DNA of 64,000 bases from an uncultured Ruminococcus sp. (GTDB lineage Bacteria; Bacillota; Clostridia; Oscillospirales; Ruminococcaceae), in the NCBI GenBank assembly GCA_944386525.1, contig CALXBL010000003.1, positions 1-64,000 on the forward strand, read 5' to 3'. The first letter of the stretch is position 1; each line of letters begins with the position of its first letter. The notes beneath the pieces are model-generated. The model was not told where the DNA came from, ran no database searches, and worked only from the letters and a program-made list of their open reading frames with translations. Positions 3,616 through 37,958 of the stretch are shown here, piece after piece. Position numbers and translations under genes: made by a program.

Positions 3616-4695
3616 TTATTTCTTTTCTGCATAGGGAACGGACTTTCCTGCATACAGCTCCTGACGCATAATCTCAAAGCCGTCGCAGCAGTGCACGAGA
3701 TATCCGACCACATCGTCTTTCTGAATCGGCGCATAAAGCATGGGTGCAGTTTCCGTTACCCATATTATCCTTATATCCGACTGAGGAGCGCAGCACCATA
3801 GTACTTCCTCCTTAGCATAGAGCGGAACGGTTTCCTCAGTGCCGCCGGCTACAGGCAGTTTCAGCGAATCAGGAACGGTTGCATACTGCATCTCTGCACG
3901 GGCAAAAGCCTCCTCGTATAGGGTGATGTGGTCATTCCAGTCGTTTTTGTCGTTCAGGGTTACGCAGATAAGCGTGATACCGTTACGCTCGCAGGCTGAC
4001 ACAAGACATCTTCCTGCCTCATCGGTAAAGCCTGTTTTAACGCCGATAACACCATCGTACATGGAGAGCAGCTTGTTTGAGTTATAGAGCCATCGTTCAT
4101 AGGGCGGATTGCCGAAATCGAGGCAGGCTGACTCCTGAGAGCATATCTCCCGGAAGTCCTCATTTCTTAGAGCCTCAGCGGTGAGCAGTCCCATGTCGTA
4201 TGCGGTGGAGTAATGTTCCTCGTGGTGAAGTCCCGAAGGTGTTACAAAGTGGGAATTTTCCATTCCTATATCAGCGGCACGTTCGTTCATCATATCGGCA
4301 AAAGCCTCGTAGCTGCCGGCGATTTTCACAGCAGCAGCTCCTGCCGCATCATTGCCGGAGGGCAGCAGCATACCGTAGCAAAGGTCACGCTTTGACACAA
4401 TATCGCCCTCCAGGAGTCCCATTGAGGAGCCTTCCACCTTGATGGCGTTTGAGTCGACGGTAAATTCGCTGTCAAGATCTCCGCTTTCCAGGCACAGCAG
4501 GGCGGACATTATTTTTGTAGTGCTTGCCATTGGCAGCTTCATGTGAGAGTTGCCCTCCAGTATCACAGAGCGTGAAGCCATATCCATTACAACATACGCC
4601 TTTGCGGAGACATCCACCTCCCACGCAGAGCCGCATGGCACAGCGCAGCAGAACATCATACATAAAGCGCATATAACGCAAATTATCCTTTTCAT
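3616..4695 (-). CDS. dacF: D-alanyl-D-alanine carboxypeptidase (DacF/PBP5 type)
   Basis: 359 residues from ATG 4695, chosen over an in-frame ATG 45 bases upstream because GTAGGAGG sits eight bases before it and a clean signal peptide (about 1-24, MKRIICVICALCMMFCC) follows. It trims the terminal D-Ala from peptidoglycan stem peptides outside the membrane. All three penicillin-fold motifs are intact: STTK (Ser58, Lys61), SGN (113-115) and KTG (220-222). A C-terminal beta-rich domain follows. It sits after gerW, as carboxypeptidases often sit near scpAB in Clostridia. A sigma-E-like -10 (CATACAGT) lies just upstream, but no convincing -35 does. Compare the defective paralogue at 35338. Confidence 0.92.
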   Translation of the reverse strand: MKRIICVICALCMMFCCAVPCGSAWEVDVSAKAYVVMDMASRSVILEGNSHMKLPMASTTKIMSALLCLESGDLDSEFTVDSNAIKVEGSSMGLLEGDIVSKRDLCYGMLLPSGNDAAGAAAVKIAGSYEAFADMMNERAADIGMENSHFVTPSGLHHEEHYSTAYDMGLLTAEALRNEDFREICSQESACLDFGNPPYERWLYNSNKLLSMYDGVIGVKTGFTDEAGRCLVSACERNGITLICVTLNDKNDWNDHITLYEEAFARAEMQYATVPDSLKLPVAGGTEETVPLYAKEEVLWCCAPQSDIRIIWVTETAPMLYAPIQKDDVVGYLVHCCDGFEIMRQELYAGKSVPYAEKK

Positions 4696-4758
4696 ACACA
4701 AGCCTCCTACAGCTATAACATATAATACTGTATGAGGCATTGTTTTATGTTATGATAG

Positions 4759-29581: not shown

Positions 29582-32500
29582 TTACTTAAAGTAATCTACG
29601 CCGCTCTGGAATATGCGCTGATCCTTTTCACCCGGTACGTTCCGGTACAGATTCTTGCCAATACGTTCGCTGTGTCCCATCTTGCCAAGTACTCTGCCGT
29701 CAGGTGAGGTGATACCCTCGATTGCTGCCATGGACGTGTTTGGATTGTAGTGTATATCCATCGTGGGATTTCCGTTCATGTCTACATACTGAGTTGCGAT
29801 TTGTCCGTTTGCTGCCAGCTTGTCGATAAGCGTCTGAGGTGCTACAAAACGTCCCTCACCATGTGATATTGCTACTGTGTGGATATCTCCCGGCTTGCAG
29901 CCATAGAGCCACGGCGACTTGTTTGATGCAATTCTTGTATTCACAAGCATCGACTGGTGACGTGCTATAGTGTTGAATGTGAGCGTCGGAGAGCTGTTCT
30001 CCATAGGCACTATCTCGCCATACGGCACAAGTCCCAGCTTGATAAGCGCCTGAAAACCGTTGCATATGCCCAGCATAAGACCGTCACGATTCTTCAGCAG
30101 ATTGTGTACAGCGTCCTGTATCTTCGGGTTGCGGAAGAATGCTGTGATGAACTTTCCGCTGCCGTCCGGCTCATCGCCGCCGCTGAATCCGCCGGGTATC
30201 ATGATTATCTGTGAATTCTTTATAAGTCTGGCAAACTCATCAACCGACTCCTCAATTGCTCCTGCAGACAGATTCCTGATAACGAATACCTCAGCTCTTG
30301 CGCCTGCACGCTCAAAAATTCGAGCTGTGTCGTATTCGCAGTTGGTGCCCGGAAATACCGGAATAAGCACTCTCGGACGTGCCTCCTTGACGGACGCTGA
30401 GAGAGTTTCTGTACGTTTGTATGAGTAAGCCTGAGGTTTTTCGGCAGTAGTTTTTATGCGGCATGGGAATACTGGTTCAAGCTTCTTCTCCCAAGTCTGG
30501 ATAAGCTCCTCAAGGTCGAGAGAGTAATCAGCAGTTGAGATAGTCTTAGTATCAGTAGTCGTACCGATAACATCTTCATCAGCCTGAGCCATGCCGTTAA
30601 GCTCAATGATAAATGCGCCTGCACATGGCTGGAACAGTTCCTCAGCTGAGAGCTTTTTAGAGAATGCAAAGCCGATCTTATTGCCAAACGCCATCTTTGC
30701 GATACCCTCAGCAACGCCGCCGAAGTCAACTGCCCACACAGCAGCAGCTCTGCCGTTGGCGATAATTTTTTCGGTTTTGTCGAAGCATTCACGTATGCTG
30801 TCGAATACGGGCAGACCGTTTTCGTCGTACTTAGGACGAATCTGAATAACAGTGCTGTTTGTCTTTTTGAATTCCGTGGAGACAACCTTGTCGGCATTGG
30901 CAGTAGATACGGCAAATGATACGAGTGTAGGCGGAACGTCGATATTCTCAAACGTGCCGGACATGGAGTCCTTGCCGCCGATAGAGCCGCAGGAAAGCTC
31001 CAGCTGAGCCTTGAATGCGCCCAGAAGTGCAGCCATAGGCTTGCCCCAGCGTGACGGCGTATTCTGAGTACGCTCGAAGTACTCCTGGAATGTGAGCCAG
31101 CAGTGGTGCCAGCTGCCGCCTGCTGCAACTATCTTTGCGATAGATTCAACAACAGCGCACATAGCACCGTGGTACGGGCTGTTTTCGCTGATGAGAGGAT
31201 TGAAGCCCCAGCCCATGAGTGAGCAGGTGTTAGTCTCTCCCCGGAGCACCGGAATTTTTGCAGCCATAGCCTGAGACGGTGAAAGCTGATATGCGCCTCC
31301 GAACGGCATGAGCACTGTGCCTGCGCCGATGGTGGAGTCGAACTTCTCAATAAGACCCTTCTGTGAGCATACGTTCAGGTTGGACATAAGCTCTGTCCAG
31401 CTTTCAGCGGAGTCCTCCATGGCGTTTACAGCGGAGGTCTTGGGAGCATCTATAACTATGTCGGTATATTTCGGAGCACCGTTTGAATTGAGGAACTCAC
31501 GTGAAAGGTCAACGATAACATTGCCGTTCCATTTCATGGTAAGTCTGGGGTCGGCCTTTACAGTGGCAACGATAGTAGCCTCGAGGTTTTCCTTTGCAGC
31601 CTCACGGAGGAAGCGGTCAGACTCGTGCTCTGAAACTACAACAGCCATTCTCTCCTGTGATTCGGAGATAGCGATTTCAGTGCCGTCCAGACCCTCGTAC
31701 TTTTTGGGTACTGCGTTTAGGTCGATATCCAAACCGTCGGTCAGCTCGCCGATGGCAACAGATACGCCGCCTGCGCCGAAGTCGTTGCAGCGCTTGATCA
31801 TGCGTGTAACGAATGGATTGCGGAAAAGTCTCTGGAGCTTTCTCTCCTCGGGAGCGTTGCCCTTCTGAACCTCTGCGCCGCAGGATTCGAGGGATTCGAT
31901 GGTGTGTGACTTTGATGAACCTGTAGCGCCGCCGCAGCCGTCACGTCCTGTCTTGCCGCCGAGGAGTATTACAACGTCGCCGGGAACGGGTGCTTCACGT
32001 CTGATATTGGAAGCAGGAGCTGCGCCCAGAACAGCGCCTATCTCCATGCGCTTAGCCATATAGCCGGGGTGGTATATTTCAGAGACATGGCCTGTGGCAA
32101 GACCTATCTGGTTGCCGTAGGAGCTGTAGCCGTTTGCAGCGCCTTGAGTTATCTTTCTCTGCGGCAGCTTGCCGGAGATGGTATCAGCAACGGGCACAAG
32201 CGGATTAGCCGCACCTGTCACACGCATAGCCTGGTATACGTATGAGCGTCCCGACAGCGGGTCACGTATTGCGCCGCCGAGGCAGGTGGCAGCTCCGCCG
32301 AAAGGTTCAATTTCTGTGGGGTGGTTGTGGGTTTCGTTTTTGAACATGAGTATCCAGTCTTCCTCACGTCCGTCGATATCCACTTTTATCTTTACAGAGC
32401 AGGCATTTATCTCCTCGCTCTCGTCGAGGTCGTTGAGCTTGCCGTCTGCCTTGAGCTTTCTCACTGCAAGAGTAGCCATATCCATAAGAGTGACAGGCTT

Positions 32501-33286
32501 TTCCTCTCTGCCCAGCTCACTTCTTATGCGCAGGTAGTCGTCGAATGTTTCTTTGATATATGGTGTTTGGATATCAGTCTTTTCGATATTTGTGAGGAAT
32601 GTTGTATGGCGGCAGTGGTCGGACCAATAGGTGTCGATCATGCGGATTTCGGTGATAGTGGGGTTACGTTTTTCGGTATCACGGAAATATTTCTGGCAGA
32701 ACTTTATGTCCTCCAGGTCCATTGCAAGGCCGTACTCCTTGATGAAGCTGTTGAGCTGTGCAACAGTCAGTTCGATAAAGCCGTCGAGAGTTTTAACGGT
32801 TGTGGGTATCTCGTAGTTTACGTCGAGGGACACCGGCTTTTCCATGGCAGCCTCACGTCTTTCAACGGGGTTGATCAGGTAGGATTTAACCTTTTCGAAT
32901 TCAGCGTCGGTAATATTTCCGCTGATGATATATATCTGAGCAGAGCGCACACGGCAGCGTTCGCCCTGAAGCAGTATTTGTATACACTGTTCGCAGCTGT
33001 CGGCTCTCTGGTCGAACTGTCCGGGCAGATATTCCATGGCGAACATACGCTGGTTTCCTGAAAGCTTTGGCAGCTCTCTGTAGACCATATCAACAGCCGG
33101 CTCTGAAAAAACAGTCGGGACAGCTTTTTCGAAGGCCTCCTCGGTGAGCTTGTCGGCGTCGTAGCGGTTGAGCACACGCACTCCCGTAACGCTTACACGA
33201 AGTGCCGTCTGGAGGTCGCTGAGCACGGACTGAGCCTCTACAGCGAATTCAGGCTTTTTTTCTACATAAATTCGATAAACAGACAT
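29582..33286 (-). CDS. purL: Phosphoribosylformylglycinamidine synthase, single-chain
   Basis: 1234 residues. It converts FGAR to FGAM with glutamine in purine synthesis. Both synthase halves and the glutaminase domain are in one chain, the clostridial and proteobacterial type, rather than separate PurL, PurQ and PurS. Landmarks: SDHCRHTTF and KNETHNHPTEIEPFGGAATC in the first half, GGKDSMSGT in the second, and the glutaminase nucleophile in LGICNGFQALI with HGEGRF near the end. AAGGAG precedes ATG 33286. It starts 12 bases after mtaB, so expression probably comes from the mtaB promoter. No purine riboswitch is seen. Confidence 0.97.
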   Translation of the reverse strand: MSVYRIYVEKKPEFAVEAQSVLSDLQTALRVSVTGVRVLNRYDADKLTEEAFEKAVPTVFSEPAVDMVYRELPKLSGNQRMFAMEYLPGQFDQRADSCEQCIQILLQGERCRVRSAQIYIISGNITDAEFEKVKSYLINPVERREAAMEKPVSLDVNYEIPTTVKTLDGFIELTVAQLNSFIKEYGLAMDLEDIKFCQKYFRDTEKRNPTITEIRMIDTYWSDHCRHTTFLTNIEKTDIQTPYIKETFDDYLRIRSELGREEKPVTLMDMATLAVRKLKADGKLNDLDESEEINACSVKIKVDIDGREEDWILMFKNETHNHPTEIEPFGGAATCLGGAIRDPLSGRSYVYQAMRVTGAANPLVPVADTISGKLPQRKITQGAANGYSSYGNQIGLATGHVSEIYHPGYMAKRMEIGAVLGAAPASNIRREAPVPGDVVILLGGKTGRDGCGGATGSSKSHTIESLESCGAEVQKGNAPEERKLQRLFRNPFVTRMIKRCNDFGAGGVSVAIGELTDGLDIDLNAVPKKYEGLDGTEIAISESQERMAVVVSEHESDRFLREAAKENLEATIVATVKADPRLTMKWNGNVIVDLSREFLNSNGAPKYTDIVIDAPKTSAVNAMEDSAESWTELMSNLNVCSQKGLIEKFDSTIGAGTVLMPFGGAYQLSPSQAMAAKIPVLRGETNTCSLMGWGFNPLISENSPYHGAMCAVVESIAKIVAAGGSWHHCWLTFQEYFERTQNTPSRWGKPMAALLGAFKAQLELSCGSIGGKDSMSGTFENIDVPPTLVSFAVSTANADKVVSTEFKKTNSTVIQIRPKYDENGLPVFDSIRECFDKTEKIIANGRAAAVWAVDFGGVAEGIAKMAFGNKIGFAFSKKLSAEELFQPCAGAFIIELNGMAQADEDVIGTTTDTKTISTADYSLDLEELIQTWEKKLEPVFPCRIKTTAEKPQAYSYKRTETLSASVKEARPRVLIPVFPGTNCEYDTARIFERAGARAEVFVIRNLSAGAIEESVDEFARLIKNSQIIMIPGGFSGGDEPDGSGKFITAFFRNPKIQDAVHNLLKNRDGLMLGICNGFQALIKLGLVPYGEIVPMENSSPTLTFNTIARHQSMLVNTRIASNKSPWLYGCKPGDIHTVAISHGEGRFVAPQTLIDKLAANGQIATQYVDMNGNPTMDIHYNPNTSMAAIEGITSPDGRVLGKMGHSERIGKNLYRNVPGEKDQRIFQSGVDYFK

Positions 33287-33298
33287 GATAATACTCCT

Positions 33299-34618
33299 TT
33301 ATATTTGATTTGCAAAGCTGCCATCGTCGATATCGCCGTAACAGCCAGCAGCATCACTCTCTTTTATTCTAACATAAAATATTGATTTACGCAAACTTTT
33401 TTTTATGTTTTTTTCGGGAATTTTTATGACCGTACCGCACGGGGCGTGTCCGGTGTGGAATCCGTCGTCCTTTTCGCATTCAAAAAGCACGGGAACTACG
33501 TGGTTTTCGAGCGACTTATGGAAAGATATCCTGAGCTTTTCGTCAAGTGACTGGAGCATTTCGGCACGTTTTGATTTAACGCTCTCGGTGACCTGACCGT
33601 CCATGCAGGCTGCTTTCGTGCCCGGACGGGCGGAATATCGGAACACGTGCATCCTGGCAAAGGCTATCCTTTCGGCGAATGCAAGGCTTTCGTGGAATTC
33701 GTCTTCCGTCTCGCCGGGGAAACCTGTCATGATGTCGGTTGTGATGGCGCAGTGAGGGAAATATCTCCTCACGAGCCGGCAGATGTCCTCATATTCGCCT
33801 GATGTATACTTTCTGTTCATGCGTTTCAGCACGCTGTCGGAGCCGCTCTGGAGCGACAGGTGGAACTGTGGACAAAATTCCGGCACGGCGGCAAGACCTC
33901 TCAGGAGCTCCTCGGTGATGCGTTCGGGCTCAAGAGAGCCGAGTCTTACTCTTTCAGCTCCGGCGTCTGCGCACGCAGTCACGGCATCGAGGAGCGTGTG
34001 ACCTGTTTCAGCGCCGTAGAATGCAAGGTTTATTCCGCACAGGACTATCTCACGATGACCGGAGCTTACAAGTCTGCCGGCGCATTCACGCAGCTCCGGC
34101 AGCAGCATACTTCTGCATCTTCCTCGGGCGTAGGGTATTATGCAGTAGGAGCAGAACGAGTTGCAGCCGTCCTGAATTTTCAGGAAGGCACGTGTATTTT
34201 TCGGGCTGTTCTCCCAGTCGAGGCACTCAAAGGAATCGCCGCTTCCGTAGGCAGAAACGGCAGATTTCCTTTGTCTGTCGGCCAGAAACTCCTTGGTGAG
34301 CGCAGGCAGACGCATTCTGTCCTTAGTGCCGATGATTATGTCGGCACCTGTGAGAGACTCAGCCTTCTCCGGGAAAGCCTGAGGGTAGCAGCCGGTGAGG
34401 ACTATTATAATATCAGGTTTGCTTTGACGCAGACGCCGTATAGCATTTGAAACTCGCTTGTCTCCCGAGGCTGTTACGGTGCAGGAGTTTATAATGGCAA
34501 TATCAGCAGTGCTGTCAGCAGACGCAGTTTCAAAGCCATAGCTTTCCATGAGTCTTTGCATACCGGCGGTCTCGCAGGTGTTCACCTTGCAGCCGAATGT
34601 TATATAGCAGCAGCGCAA
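33299..34618 (-). CDS. mtaB: tRNA threonylcarbamoyladenosine methylthiotransferase MtaB
   Basis: 439 residues. A radical SAM enzyme that converts t6A37 to ms2t6A37 in tRNA. The N-terminal methylthiotransferase domain has CYITFGCKVNTCE, and the radical SAM motif is DGCNSFCSYCIIPYARGR. A short TRAM-like region follows after about 375. The start is TTG 34618, eight bases after AAGGAG; the nearby ATG is out of frame. It precedes purL and has a candidate promoter at 34775-34803. TsaD, which makes t6A, is also in this window. Confidence 0.92.
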   Translation of the reverse strand: MRCCYITFGCKVNTCETAGMQRLMESYGFETASADSTADIAIINSCTVTASGDKRVSNAIRRLRQSKPDIIIVLTGCYPQAFPEKAESLTGADIIIGTKDRMRLPALTKEFLADRQRKSAVSAYGSGDSFECLDWENSPKNTRAFLKIQDGCNSFCSYCIIPYARGRCRSMLLPELRECAGRLVSSGHREIVLCGINLAFYGAETGHTLLDAVTACADAGAERVRLGSLEPERITEELLRGLAAVPEFCPQFHLSLQSGSDSVLKRMNRKYTSGEYEDICRLVRRYFPHCAITTDIMTGFPGETEDEFHESLAFAERIAFARMHVFRYSARPGTKAACMDGQVTESVKSKRAEMLQSLDEKLRISFHKSLENHVVPVLFECEKDDGFHTGHAPCGTVIKIPEKNIKKSLRKSIFYVRIKESDAAGCYGDIDDGSFANQI

Positions 34619-34940: not shown

Positions 34941-35171
34941 ATGTTTGAGACAATGGTAGAACTTAAAACAATCAATGATGTTAAGGATTTCGTAAACACA
35001 GTAATGCTTTTCAGCTTCGATATCGACCTGGTATCCGGCAGATATGCTGTAGACGCAAAGTCTATTATGGGTATCTTTAGTCTTGACCTGTCCAAGGCAA
35101 TCAAGCTTCAGGCTCACACAGAGGATCCTGAAAAGCTGATTGAGGCTATCGACAGATTCATTGTAAAGTAA
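34941..35171 (+). CDS. HPr-like protein lacking the phosphorylated His
   Basis: 76 residues from ATG 34941 with TTGGGAGG upstream; longer in-frame readings would cover the promoter and are rejected. The C-terminal half is clearly HPr-like, with RYAVDAKSIMGIFSLDLSKAIKL corresponding to the Ser46 region (landmark KSIMGIFSLDL). The N-terminal segment that should hold GIHARPA reads INDVKDFVNT, so the PTS phosphorylation site His15 is missing while the regulatory Ser is kept. It is therefore unlikely to carry phosphate from Enzyme I and may act as a regulatory Ser-P or structural protein. Monocistronic, strong promoter, terminator at 35238. Confidence 0.8.
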   Translation: MFETMVELKTINDVKDFVNTVMLFSFDIDLVSGRYAVDAKSIMGIFSLDLSKAIKLQAHTEDPEKLIEAIDRFIVK

Positions 35172-35337: not shown

Positions 35338-36474
35338 ATGCTGAAAAAAATTATCTGCTTTATATGCAGTATAACAGTCATGACGGGAGTGTTTTCCGTG
35401 GAGGCACAGGCTGAGGAAACCATTCCTGAACCGGCTGCGTATGTCCTCATGGAGTGCAGCACGGGCACGGTGCTTGACGAGATGAACGGCGACAAAAAAC
35501 TCCCCGTGGGAACTATGGCAAAGCTCATGACCGCTCTGCTTGCCGGCGATATGATAGAGTCGGGGAAGTGGAGGAAAGATATGCTGCTTACCGCATCGGA
35601 CTGCGTAAACGGCACAAAGGGAGCTGTTATCTGGCTTCAGTCCGGCGAGAGTATGACTGTTGACGGTCTGCTGAGAGGACTTATCATTGGCAACGCAAAC
35701 GACGCTGCTGCCGTAATTGCCGAAAATATCAGCGGAAGCTGCGAGGATTTCGTCATGGATATGAACGCATACGCTTTTGAGCTTGGTATGCGTAATACAC
35801 GCTTTACAAGTCCGCAGGGCTACGACGACCCGAACGCCTATTCAACTGCAAGAGATATAGGTCTGCTTTGCTGTAAGCTTGCGGAGTATGACTGCCTTAA
35901 AGACTACTTCATCACATGGCGTGACTTCCTGCGTGACGGCGCAACTGAGCTTGTAAACGAAAACACCTTCGCCCGTACCTACGAGGGCATGATAGGTTGG
36001 AAGGCTGCTCACTCTGAGGCTTCAGGCTGGTCGCTGGCGGCAGGAGCTGAACGTGACGGCATGGAGTGCGCCGCTGTGGTTTTGGGCTCTCCCGACGAGG
36101 ACAGCAGATTTGCATATGCTAAAAAGCTCCTCAAAAAAGGCTTTTCTGAGTATACGATAACTCTACCCGGATTTTCACCGGAGCATATGAAGCCGGTTCG
36201 TGTGAAGGGCGGAGTTTCGAGCAGCGTTGAGATACGTGCAGAGAGCCTTTCGGGACTTGTCGTCCCCGTCGATGATACGTCGCTTGAGGCGGTTATAGTG
36301 CTGCCAAAATATGTCCATGCCCCCGTCGATGCAGGCAGACCTGTTGGTACTATCGCCTTCTACAACGGCGATGTGCTCCTCCATGAGACGGCTCTCGTCG
36401 CAAAAGAACCGGTCGAGGCTATGACGGCAGCTCTTGCAGTTAAAAAAATATTGGTGAAAATGTGCAAATTGTAG
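35338..36474 (+). CDS. PBP5/DacF homologue with altered catalytic motifs
   Basis: 378 residues. Exported (signal peptide about 1-25) and laid out like a D-Ala-D-Ala carboxypeptidase with a C-terminal beta domain, but all three active-site motifs are changed: TMAK (59-62) in place of SxxK, NAN (119-121) in place of SxN, and KAA (221-223) in place of KTG. The paralogue at 3616-4695 has all three intact. Both motif lysines remain, and the frame is open and well conserved, so this looks like a maintained pseudoenzyme rather than a decaying gene. AGAGGGTA precedes ATG 35338; no sigma-A promoter is clear. Role unknown; peptidoglycan binding or partner regulation are possibilities. Confidence 0.82.
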   Translation: MLKKIICFICSITVMTGVFSVEAQAEETIPEPAAYVLMECSTGTVLDEMNGDKKLPVGTMAKLMTALLAGDMIESGKWRKDMLLTASDCVNGTKGAVIWLQSGESMTVDGLLRGLIIGNANDAAAVIAENISGSCEDFVMDMNAYAFELGMRNTRFTSPQGYDDPNAYSTARDIGLLCCKLAEYDCLKDYFITWRDFLRDGATELVNENTFARTYEGMIGWKAAHSEASGWSLAAGAERDGMECAAVVLGSPDEDSRFAYAKKLLKKGFSEYTITLPGFSPEHMKPVRVKGGVSSSVEIRAESLSGLVVPVDDTSLEAVIVLPKYVHAPVDAGRPVGTIAFYNGDVLLHETALVAKEPVEAMTAALAVKKILVKMCKL

Positions 36475-36620: not shown

Positions 36621-37958
36621 ATGTCTTTGAAGTTGAATACAAAGTATTTGGCTGACTTTATGAATGATGACGAAATGTGCGGCATCGCCCACCAGGTGGA
36701 AGCATCTGCTAAGCTGCTCCACGAAAAAACCGGTCAGGGAAGCGACTTTCTCGGCTGGCTTACACTGCCCACCGACTACGATAAGGAGGAATTCGCAAGA
36801 ATAAAAACTGCTGCCAAGAAAATTCAGGGCAACTCCGATATCCTTATCGTTATAGGTATAGGCGGTTCATATCTGGGCGCAAGAGCCGCTATCGAGTTTT
36901 TGAAGTCCACGCTCTATAATAGCCTTAAAAAGGATACTCCCGATATCTACTATGTCGGCAACAATATCAACCCCACTTACCTCAGCGAGATAATCTCTCT
37001 CTGTAAGGATAAGGACTTTTCAGTAAACGTTATTTCCAAGTCCGGTACTACTACCGAGCCAGCACTCGCTTTCAGAGTTTTCAAGAAGCTGGTCGAGGAT
37101 AAGTACGGCAAGGACGGAGCTAAGGATCATATATTCGCAACTACTGATAAGGCTAAGGGTACACTCAAGGAGCTGTCTGATACAGAAGGCTATGAGACAT
37201 TTGTCGTTCCGGACGATGTGGGCGGACGTTTCTCCGTTCTCACAGCAGTAGGTCTGCTGCCAATCGCCGTTGCAGGCTGCGATATCGACGCTATCATGGC
37301 AGGCGCAGCTCAGGCTCAGCAGGACTATACGGCAGACTTTGAACACAACGATTGCTACAAATACGCTGCTATCAGAAATATCCTCAGCCGCAAGGGTAAG
37401 TCGGTTGAAATGCTCGTTTCCTACGACCCCAACTTCGTTATGATGGCTGAATGGTATAAGCAGCTCTTCGGCGAGAGCGAGGGTAAGGATAATAAGGGCA
37501 TCTTCCCGTCAGCTGCCGTGTTTTCAACAGATCTGCACTCCATGGGTCAGTATATCCAGGAGGGCTCAAGAATTCTCTTCGAGACTGTTGTAGATATCAA
37601 GAAGCCAAAGACCGACTTCTTCCTCGAAGCAGACGAGGAAAACCTCGATGGACTAAACTTCCTGTGTAACCAGAATATGTCCGTCGTAAACCGCAAGGCT
37701 CTCGAGGGCGTTGTGCTGGCTCACACCGAGGGCGGCGTTCCCAACATTATCCTTGAGCTTGAGGACACAAGCGAAAAGAGCCTTGGATATCTCATCTATT
37801 TCTTTGAAAAGGCATGTGCAATCTCCGGCTACCTGCTGGGAGTAAATCCGTTCAATCAGCCCGGCGTTGAAAGCTATAAGAGAAATATGTTCGCACTCCT
37901 CGGTAAGCCCGGCTACGAGGACCAGAAGGCTGCTCTCGAAGCTAAGCTGGCTGAGTAA
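36621..37958 (+). CDS. pgi: Glucose-6-phosphate isomerase
   Basis: 445 residues, the length typical of the bacterial Firmicute type. Interconverts glucose-6-phosphate and fructose-6-phosphate in the cytoplasm. Landmarks: [55 protein letters not shown] and [20 protein letters not shown] at the C terminus. TGGAGG precedes ATG 36621. The P-loop gene at 38046 follows after 87 bases in the same direction and may be co-transcribed, as I see no terminator with a T-run between. Confidence 0.97.

Follow-up and report, generated by a model that had tools for sequence, protein, structure and literature searches.

A DacF-type carboxypeptidase homologue maintained without its catalytic motifs in a lineage of gut and rumen Ruminococcus

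A gene in the 64,000-nucleotide stretch of uncultured Ruminococcus sp. DNA analysed here (the window) encodes a degenerate homologue of DacF-type D-Ala-D-Ala carboxypeptidases, which we call pseudo-DacF. We favour, with moderate confidence, the interpretation that pseudo-DacF is a maintained pseudo-carboxypeptidase that lost catalysis in place and most likely binds the stem peptide, or a mimic of it, without cutting. Because all three catalytic motifs are lost and the nucleophile position drifts, whereas what remains of the pocket is strictly conserved under purifying selection, the protein appears to be one that does not cut and still needs its pocket. The gene persists intact, under selection and at an unchanged chromosomal position, in more than 80 species, and this suggests a non-catalytic wall-binding or regulatory protein. 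The features of the locus are collected in Table 1.

Table 1. Features of the pseudo-DacF locus and of the intact carboxypeptidase gene in the window
Feature	Position	Strand	Basis
Intact S11 carboxypeptidase (STTK / SGN / KTG), ~31 kb from pseudo-DacF	3616..4740	-	Pfam, motifs
PurL	29582-33286		Pfam
MiaB-like radical SAM methylthiotransferase, conserved neighbour	33299..34618	-	
HPr-like protein, upstream neighbour; His15 segment absent, Ser46 segment kept (AKSIMGIFSLDLS)	34944..35171	+	
Pseudo-DacF, degenerate DacF-type D-Ala-D-Ala carboxypeptidase homologue, 378 aa	35338..36474	+	ORF, Pfam, orthologues
Signal-peptide-like N-terminal segment, residues 1-25, MLKKIICFICSITVMTGVFSVEAQA	35338..35412	+	Sequence; predicted helix 2-19
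TMAK, residues 59-62, at SxxK position; residue 59 varies, Lys62 does not	35512..35523	+	Alignments
GNAN (G118-N119-A120-N121), at SxN position; N119 in place of catalytic Ser, clade-invariant	35689..35700	+	Alignments
NAN, residues 119-121, aligned with SxN	35692-35700	+	Alignment with canonical enzymes
Glu208, where canonical DacF has a fixed Thr; aligned to Arg of NRN in PBP5/PBP6 structures	35959..35961	+	
KAA, residues 222-224, at KTG position; Lys222 invariant	36001..36009	+	Alignments
PBP5_C domain, residues 284-360	36187..36417	+	Pfam; AlphaFold2 model
Predicted C-terminal helix, residues 364-375	36427..36462	+	AlphaFold2 model
gpi, glucose-6-phosphate isomerase, conserved downstream neighbour at canonical and degenerate loci	36621..37958	+	

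The reading frame starts with ATG and is open throughout. By homology the product belongs to the Peptidase_S11, DacF-type proteins, with an S11 domain (3.8e-45, residues 32-251) followed by PBP5_C (2.9e-7), and both Pfam matches exceed the curated cut-offs. Judged from the sequence and a predicted helix, the N-terminus is signal-peptide-like and of the export type. The modelled C-terminal helix is a probable membrane anchor; its amphipathicity was not significant for the window sequence. Alignments to canonical enzymes place TMAK at SxxK, NAN at SxN and KAA at KTG. These substitutions had been noted from the DNA at the outset, together with an intact frame, a retained fold length and C-terminal domain, and an intact paralogue 31 kb away, and each of these points was borne out. 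Pseudo-DacF thus lacks the nucleophilic Ser of an active SxxK acyltransferase or DD-carboxypeptidase, the SxN motif and the KTG motif, the last of which reads KAx, KVx or KEx across the clade of degenerate orthologues.

An AlphaFold2 model built from the family alignment (mean pLDDT 93.8, pTM 0.83) predicts a PBP5-like fold. The best Foldseek matches of this model were PBP6, Pseudomonas aeruginosa PBP5 and Escherichia coli PBP5 (E 2e-34 to 3e-33), with an E value of 2e-34 against PBP6 (3ita) and an rmsd of 2.6, as given by Foldseek, against PBP5 (1z6f). Such a fold is expected from homology alone and is silent on activity. The Arg of NRN with which position 208 aligns presumably sits in the PBP5 substrate pocket.

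A protein search of 99 related genomes recovered an orthologue in 14 of 15 genomes of the same genus, at 52-73% identity, and in about ten further genera of the family. Wherever the motif positions could be read, the motifs were absent from all of these orthologues, while SITK or SVTK / SAN / KTG takes their place in other genera of the family and of the order. A scan of named genomes added 80 loci, mostly from MAGs of gut and rumen that carry the label Ruminococcus or Oscillospiraceae; among them are degenerate loci of Ruminococcus callidus ATCC 27760 and of R. flavefaciens. These 80 loci partly duplicate genomes of the first search, and they were retrieved with degenerate-motif peptide patterns and so give no estimate of how frequent the canonical state is. 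The 99-genome search is free of this motif bias and yields the same invariant residues (alignment A1). Most of the genomes are MAGs. Sequencing or assembly error was rejected as an explanation, since 85 other orthologues, from many independent genomes, show the losses as well. The R. flavefaciens-like loci L091, L092, L096 and L098 carry another S11 gene (24-29% identical) some 1.2 kb upstream of the degenerate one.

The gene order MiaB-like / HPr-like / dacF / gpi is common to degenerate and canonical loci. Because the same neighbours flank canonical SITK / SAN / KTG DacF elsewhere (L027, L028, L032, L121 and L130, with part of the neighbours at many more loci), pseudo-DacF is a positional orthologue of active-type DacF that was converted in place, and not an extra copy. 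The original prediction of a maintained pseudoenzyme is strongly supported by the single origin, the loss common to 86 orthologues, purifying selection and the free nucleophile column beside a conserved pocket; its suggestion that the protein binds stem peptides or regulates a real carboxypeptidase stays plausible, and its description of the gene as a paralogue falls short. One subgroup has gpi in the opposite orientation to the gene, though still next to it. The HPr-like neighbour is conserved at the locus in canonical and degenerate genomes alike; the source genome carries two other HPr genes. Since the conserved neighbours are older than the motif change, they are silent on a partner of pseudo-DacF, and a promoter scan for the gene found no informative site.

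The source genome holds five S11 genes, including pseudo-DacF and the STTK-type gene. The three further copies are one with a dockerin-like segment (SMTK / SGC / KTG), one with SMTK / SGA / KTG and one that is degenerate (HLAQ / SGC / KTS). An STTK-type copy is present in each of 12 genomes carrying the degenerate gene and in the window's own, and canonical DacF was not found in any of these; for these genomes we therefore reject the idea that the degenerate gene is an extra copy beside an active DacF encoded elsewhere. The STTK-type copy in G007 looks broken, which may be an assembly error. The same pattern, an STTK-type copy present and canonical DacF absent, was seen in G012, the one same-genus genome (91% completeness) in which no orthologue of pseudo-DacF was found.

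Two of the other S11 genes deserve comment in their own right. The dockerin-like copy (L002, G000:C13:27807-28496) keeps SMTK and KTG and has SGC in place of SxN. Pfam gave no dockerin match for it; PMC2930009 lists a carboxypeptidase with a dockerin for R. flavefaciens FD-1. The degenerate copy (L005, G000:C15:12273-13016, minus strand; also L184-L190) represents a second S11 paralogue whose catalytic residues were lost in the lineage as well. Its motifs are HLAQ / SGC or SSC / KT[GSA], with SLVD in G020 and SLVQ in G042, and in some other relatives it retains SLTK / SAC / KTG. In contrast to pseudo-DacF, it belongs to another clade and another locus, has lost the SxxK Lys, mostly keeps KTG and ends in a C-terminal extension resembling a membrane segment.

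A tree of 132 proteins (quick search), built with the motif columns removed, separates 86 degenerate proteins from the 46 others by one branch (SH-aLRT 98), and on this tree S119N is one change that was never reverted. For gpi, a tree of 65 loci has this single split too (support 97), as expected under vertical descent; horizontal acquisition is thus disfavoured, with the qualification that branches in the canonical part of the gpi tree are long. Adjoining the degenerate clade is L123 (G025:C10:88675-89349), a gene at the gpi locus with SLTK / SAN / KTA, whose motifs resemble what may have been an early stage of conversion.

The gene is under purifying selection, with dN/dS of 0.06-0.23 in 12 close pairs with usable dS; two further pairs, including the window sequence and its nearest relative, were saturated at synonymous sites. 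The corresponding values for gpi, in pairs where both members have it, are 0.01-0.08. These data bear on whether pseudo-DacF is a decaying relic heading to loss and intact by chance, as the loss of three motifs and the absence of an orthologue from G012 might suggest. We regard this as very improbable given the low dN/dS, the intact frames of the orthologues used, a single origin followed by deep diversification, newly fixed residues and a conserved locus. Within the clade we found no orthologues with intact motifs together with frameshifts or neutral dN/dS, the pattern that would have spoken against a maintained protein; intact-motif orthologues occur only outside it.

Constraint within the clade is distributed unevenly over the former active site. 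K62, G118, N119, A120, D122 and K222 are invariant in the 86 orthologues and Asn121 is retained in most. Among the positions at which canonical DacF is fixed or almost fixed and the clade has mostly settled on another residue are A58G, S96A, S119N, T208E and T223A; A58G, S119N and T223A are nearly fixed, T208E occurs in most members, and neither Glu208 nor His225 is universal. Thr of KTG is replaced by Ala in 83 of 86 members, and the third letter varies freely (G, S, A, C, W or Y). Columns 59 and 224, both invariant in canonical DacF, are more variable than 60% and 61% of clade columns, respectively. On the protein tree the nucleophile column needs at least 21 changes within the clade, among eight residues (S, T, Y, H, M, A, V, F); for the KTG Gly column the minimum is 23. 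The loss of the motifs is common to the orthologues, but Thr59 and the third KTG letter are not fixed.

One alternative is that the protein is an active hydrolase or transferase with altered chemistry, acting through Ser or Thr59 and Lys62 where these are present or through a nucleophile that has migrated. Of the 86 orthologues, 67 have Ser or Thr at residue 59 and all have Lys62; in one subclade of 30 species Ser59 occurs in 27, so acylation would be possible there. Some presumed pseudoenzymes have turned out to be active (PMC12037411). However, the remaining 19 orthologues, scattered over the tree, have Tyr, His, Met, Ala, Val or Phe at position 59, and even in the Ser-rich subclade this column is not invariant and has intermediate variability (36th percentile). 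The Ser of SxN and the Thr of KTG are lost too, and the invariant columns of a 40-sequence alignment contain no Ser, Cys or His able to replace the nucleophile. We consider altered chemistry improbable, and loss of catalysis in the pseudo-DacF clade well supported by the sequences. The earlier suggestion that a Ser-to-Thr change could leave weak activity is likewise weakened by the range of residues that relatives carry there.

Alternatively, both ligand binding and catalysis could have been lost, leaving a scaffold that holds wall enzymes at the membrane through protein-protein contacts, for example of PBP5_C. The loss of the motifs with retention of fold and C-terminal domain fits such a role, as do P277, P310, P323 and F341 in the C-terminal part, which are more conserved in the clade than in canonical DacF. 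Against this, the pocket lysines, N119 and G118 are invariant in 86 orthologues and the pocket has gained nearly fixed residues, for which a scaffold would have no use, except in a structural role. We judge a pure scaffold rather unlikely; pseudo-DacF probably binds the stem peptide or a partner through its remodelled pocket.

We propose that catalysis was lost in place in the ancestor of one lineage of the Ruminococcus family, where the DacF of the miaB-hpr-dacF-gpi locus exchanged its SxN Ser for Asn and its KTG Thr for Ala and its nucleophile Ser drifted; an STTK-type S11 enzyme encoded elsewhere would have stayed intact. The pocket keeps its two lysines, Lys62 and Lys222, which Asn119 may bridge in the manner of the SxN Ser, and has Glu208 as a new element; the resulting positively charged site could hold a peptide carboxylate. 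Binding of a peptidoglycan stem peptide, or of a protein mimicking it, without cutting may shield pentapeptides, or may position or regulate synthases or the active carboxypeptidase, much as amidases are regulated by degenerate LytM factors. We infer from the motifs that the protein would be inactive in vitro, and the stem peptide as ligand and the STTK-type carboxypeptidase as the partner acted on are put forward as candidates. In a more specific form of this proposal, which is tentative, a DD-carboxypeptidase would have become a receptor at the membrane throughout the gut Ruminococcus lineage. Its pocket (GxxxK, GNAN, KAxH and Glu208) would sense pentapeptides whose D-Ala-D-Ala is still uncut, or a related ligand, and the receptor would then switch a synthase or the STTK-type carboxypeptidase that remains.

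DacF is a sporulation enzyme in Bacillus. A link between the conversion and loss of sporulation is not supported, as the window's genome and most others of the degenerate lineage encode SpoIIR (PF09551).

Compared with DacF / PBP5-type DD-carboxypeptidases (MEROPS S11; PF00768 and PF07943; E. coli PBP5/PBP6), pseudo-DacF shares the domain order, predicted fold, export-type N-terminus, C-terminal helix, both pocket lysines, the SxN Asn and the locus of the canonical orthologue. It differs in lacking the nucleophile Ser, the SxN Ser and the KTG Thr and Gly, and in having gained A58G, G118, S119N, T208E and T223A. By analogy, the nearest functional precedent would be the degenerate LytM (M23) factors EnvC, NlpD and ActS, which are likewise a maintained peptidoglycan-enzyme fold without catalytic residues. 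PMC8416486 describes such inactive factors as regulators of cell-wall hydrolases. In contrast to pseudo-DacF, these have an unrelated metallopeptidase fold; pseudo-DacF is known from sequence, and its partner and any activation are hypothetical. Pseudoenzymes are described as common in general (PMC10211241, PMC5106787), and we found no description of an S11 or PBP pseudoenzyme clade in the open-access library that was searched.

The profile libraries applied here call these proteins D-alanyl-D-alanine carboxypeptidases, yet in a whole gut and rumen Ruminococcus lineage they are without catalytic motifs. This cautions against basing counts of carboxypeptidases or beta-lactam targets on a family match alone. 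Together, the active-type orthologues at the same locus, the intermediate-like SLTK / SAN / KTA gene and the many separate replacements of the nucleophile form a natural series on the non-catalytic roles of a low-molecular-weight PBP.
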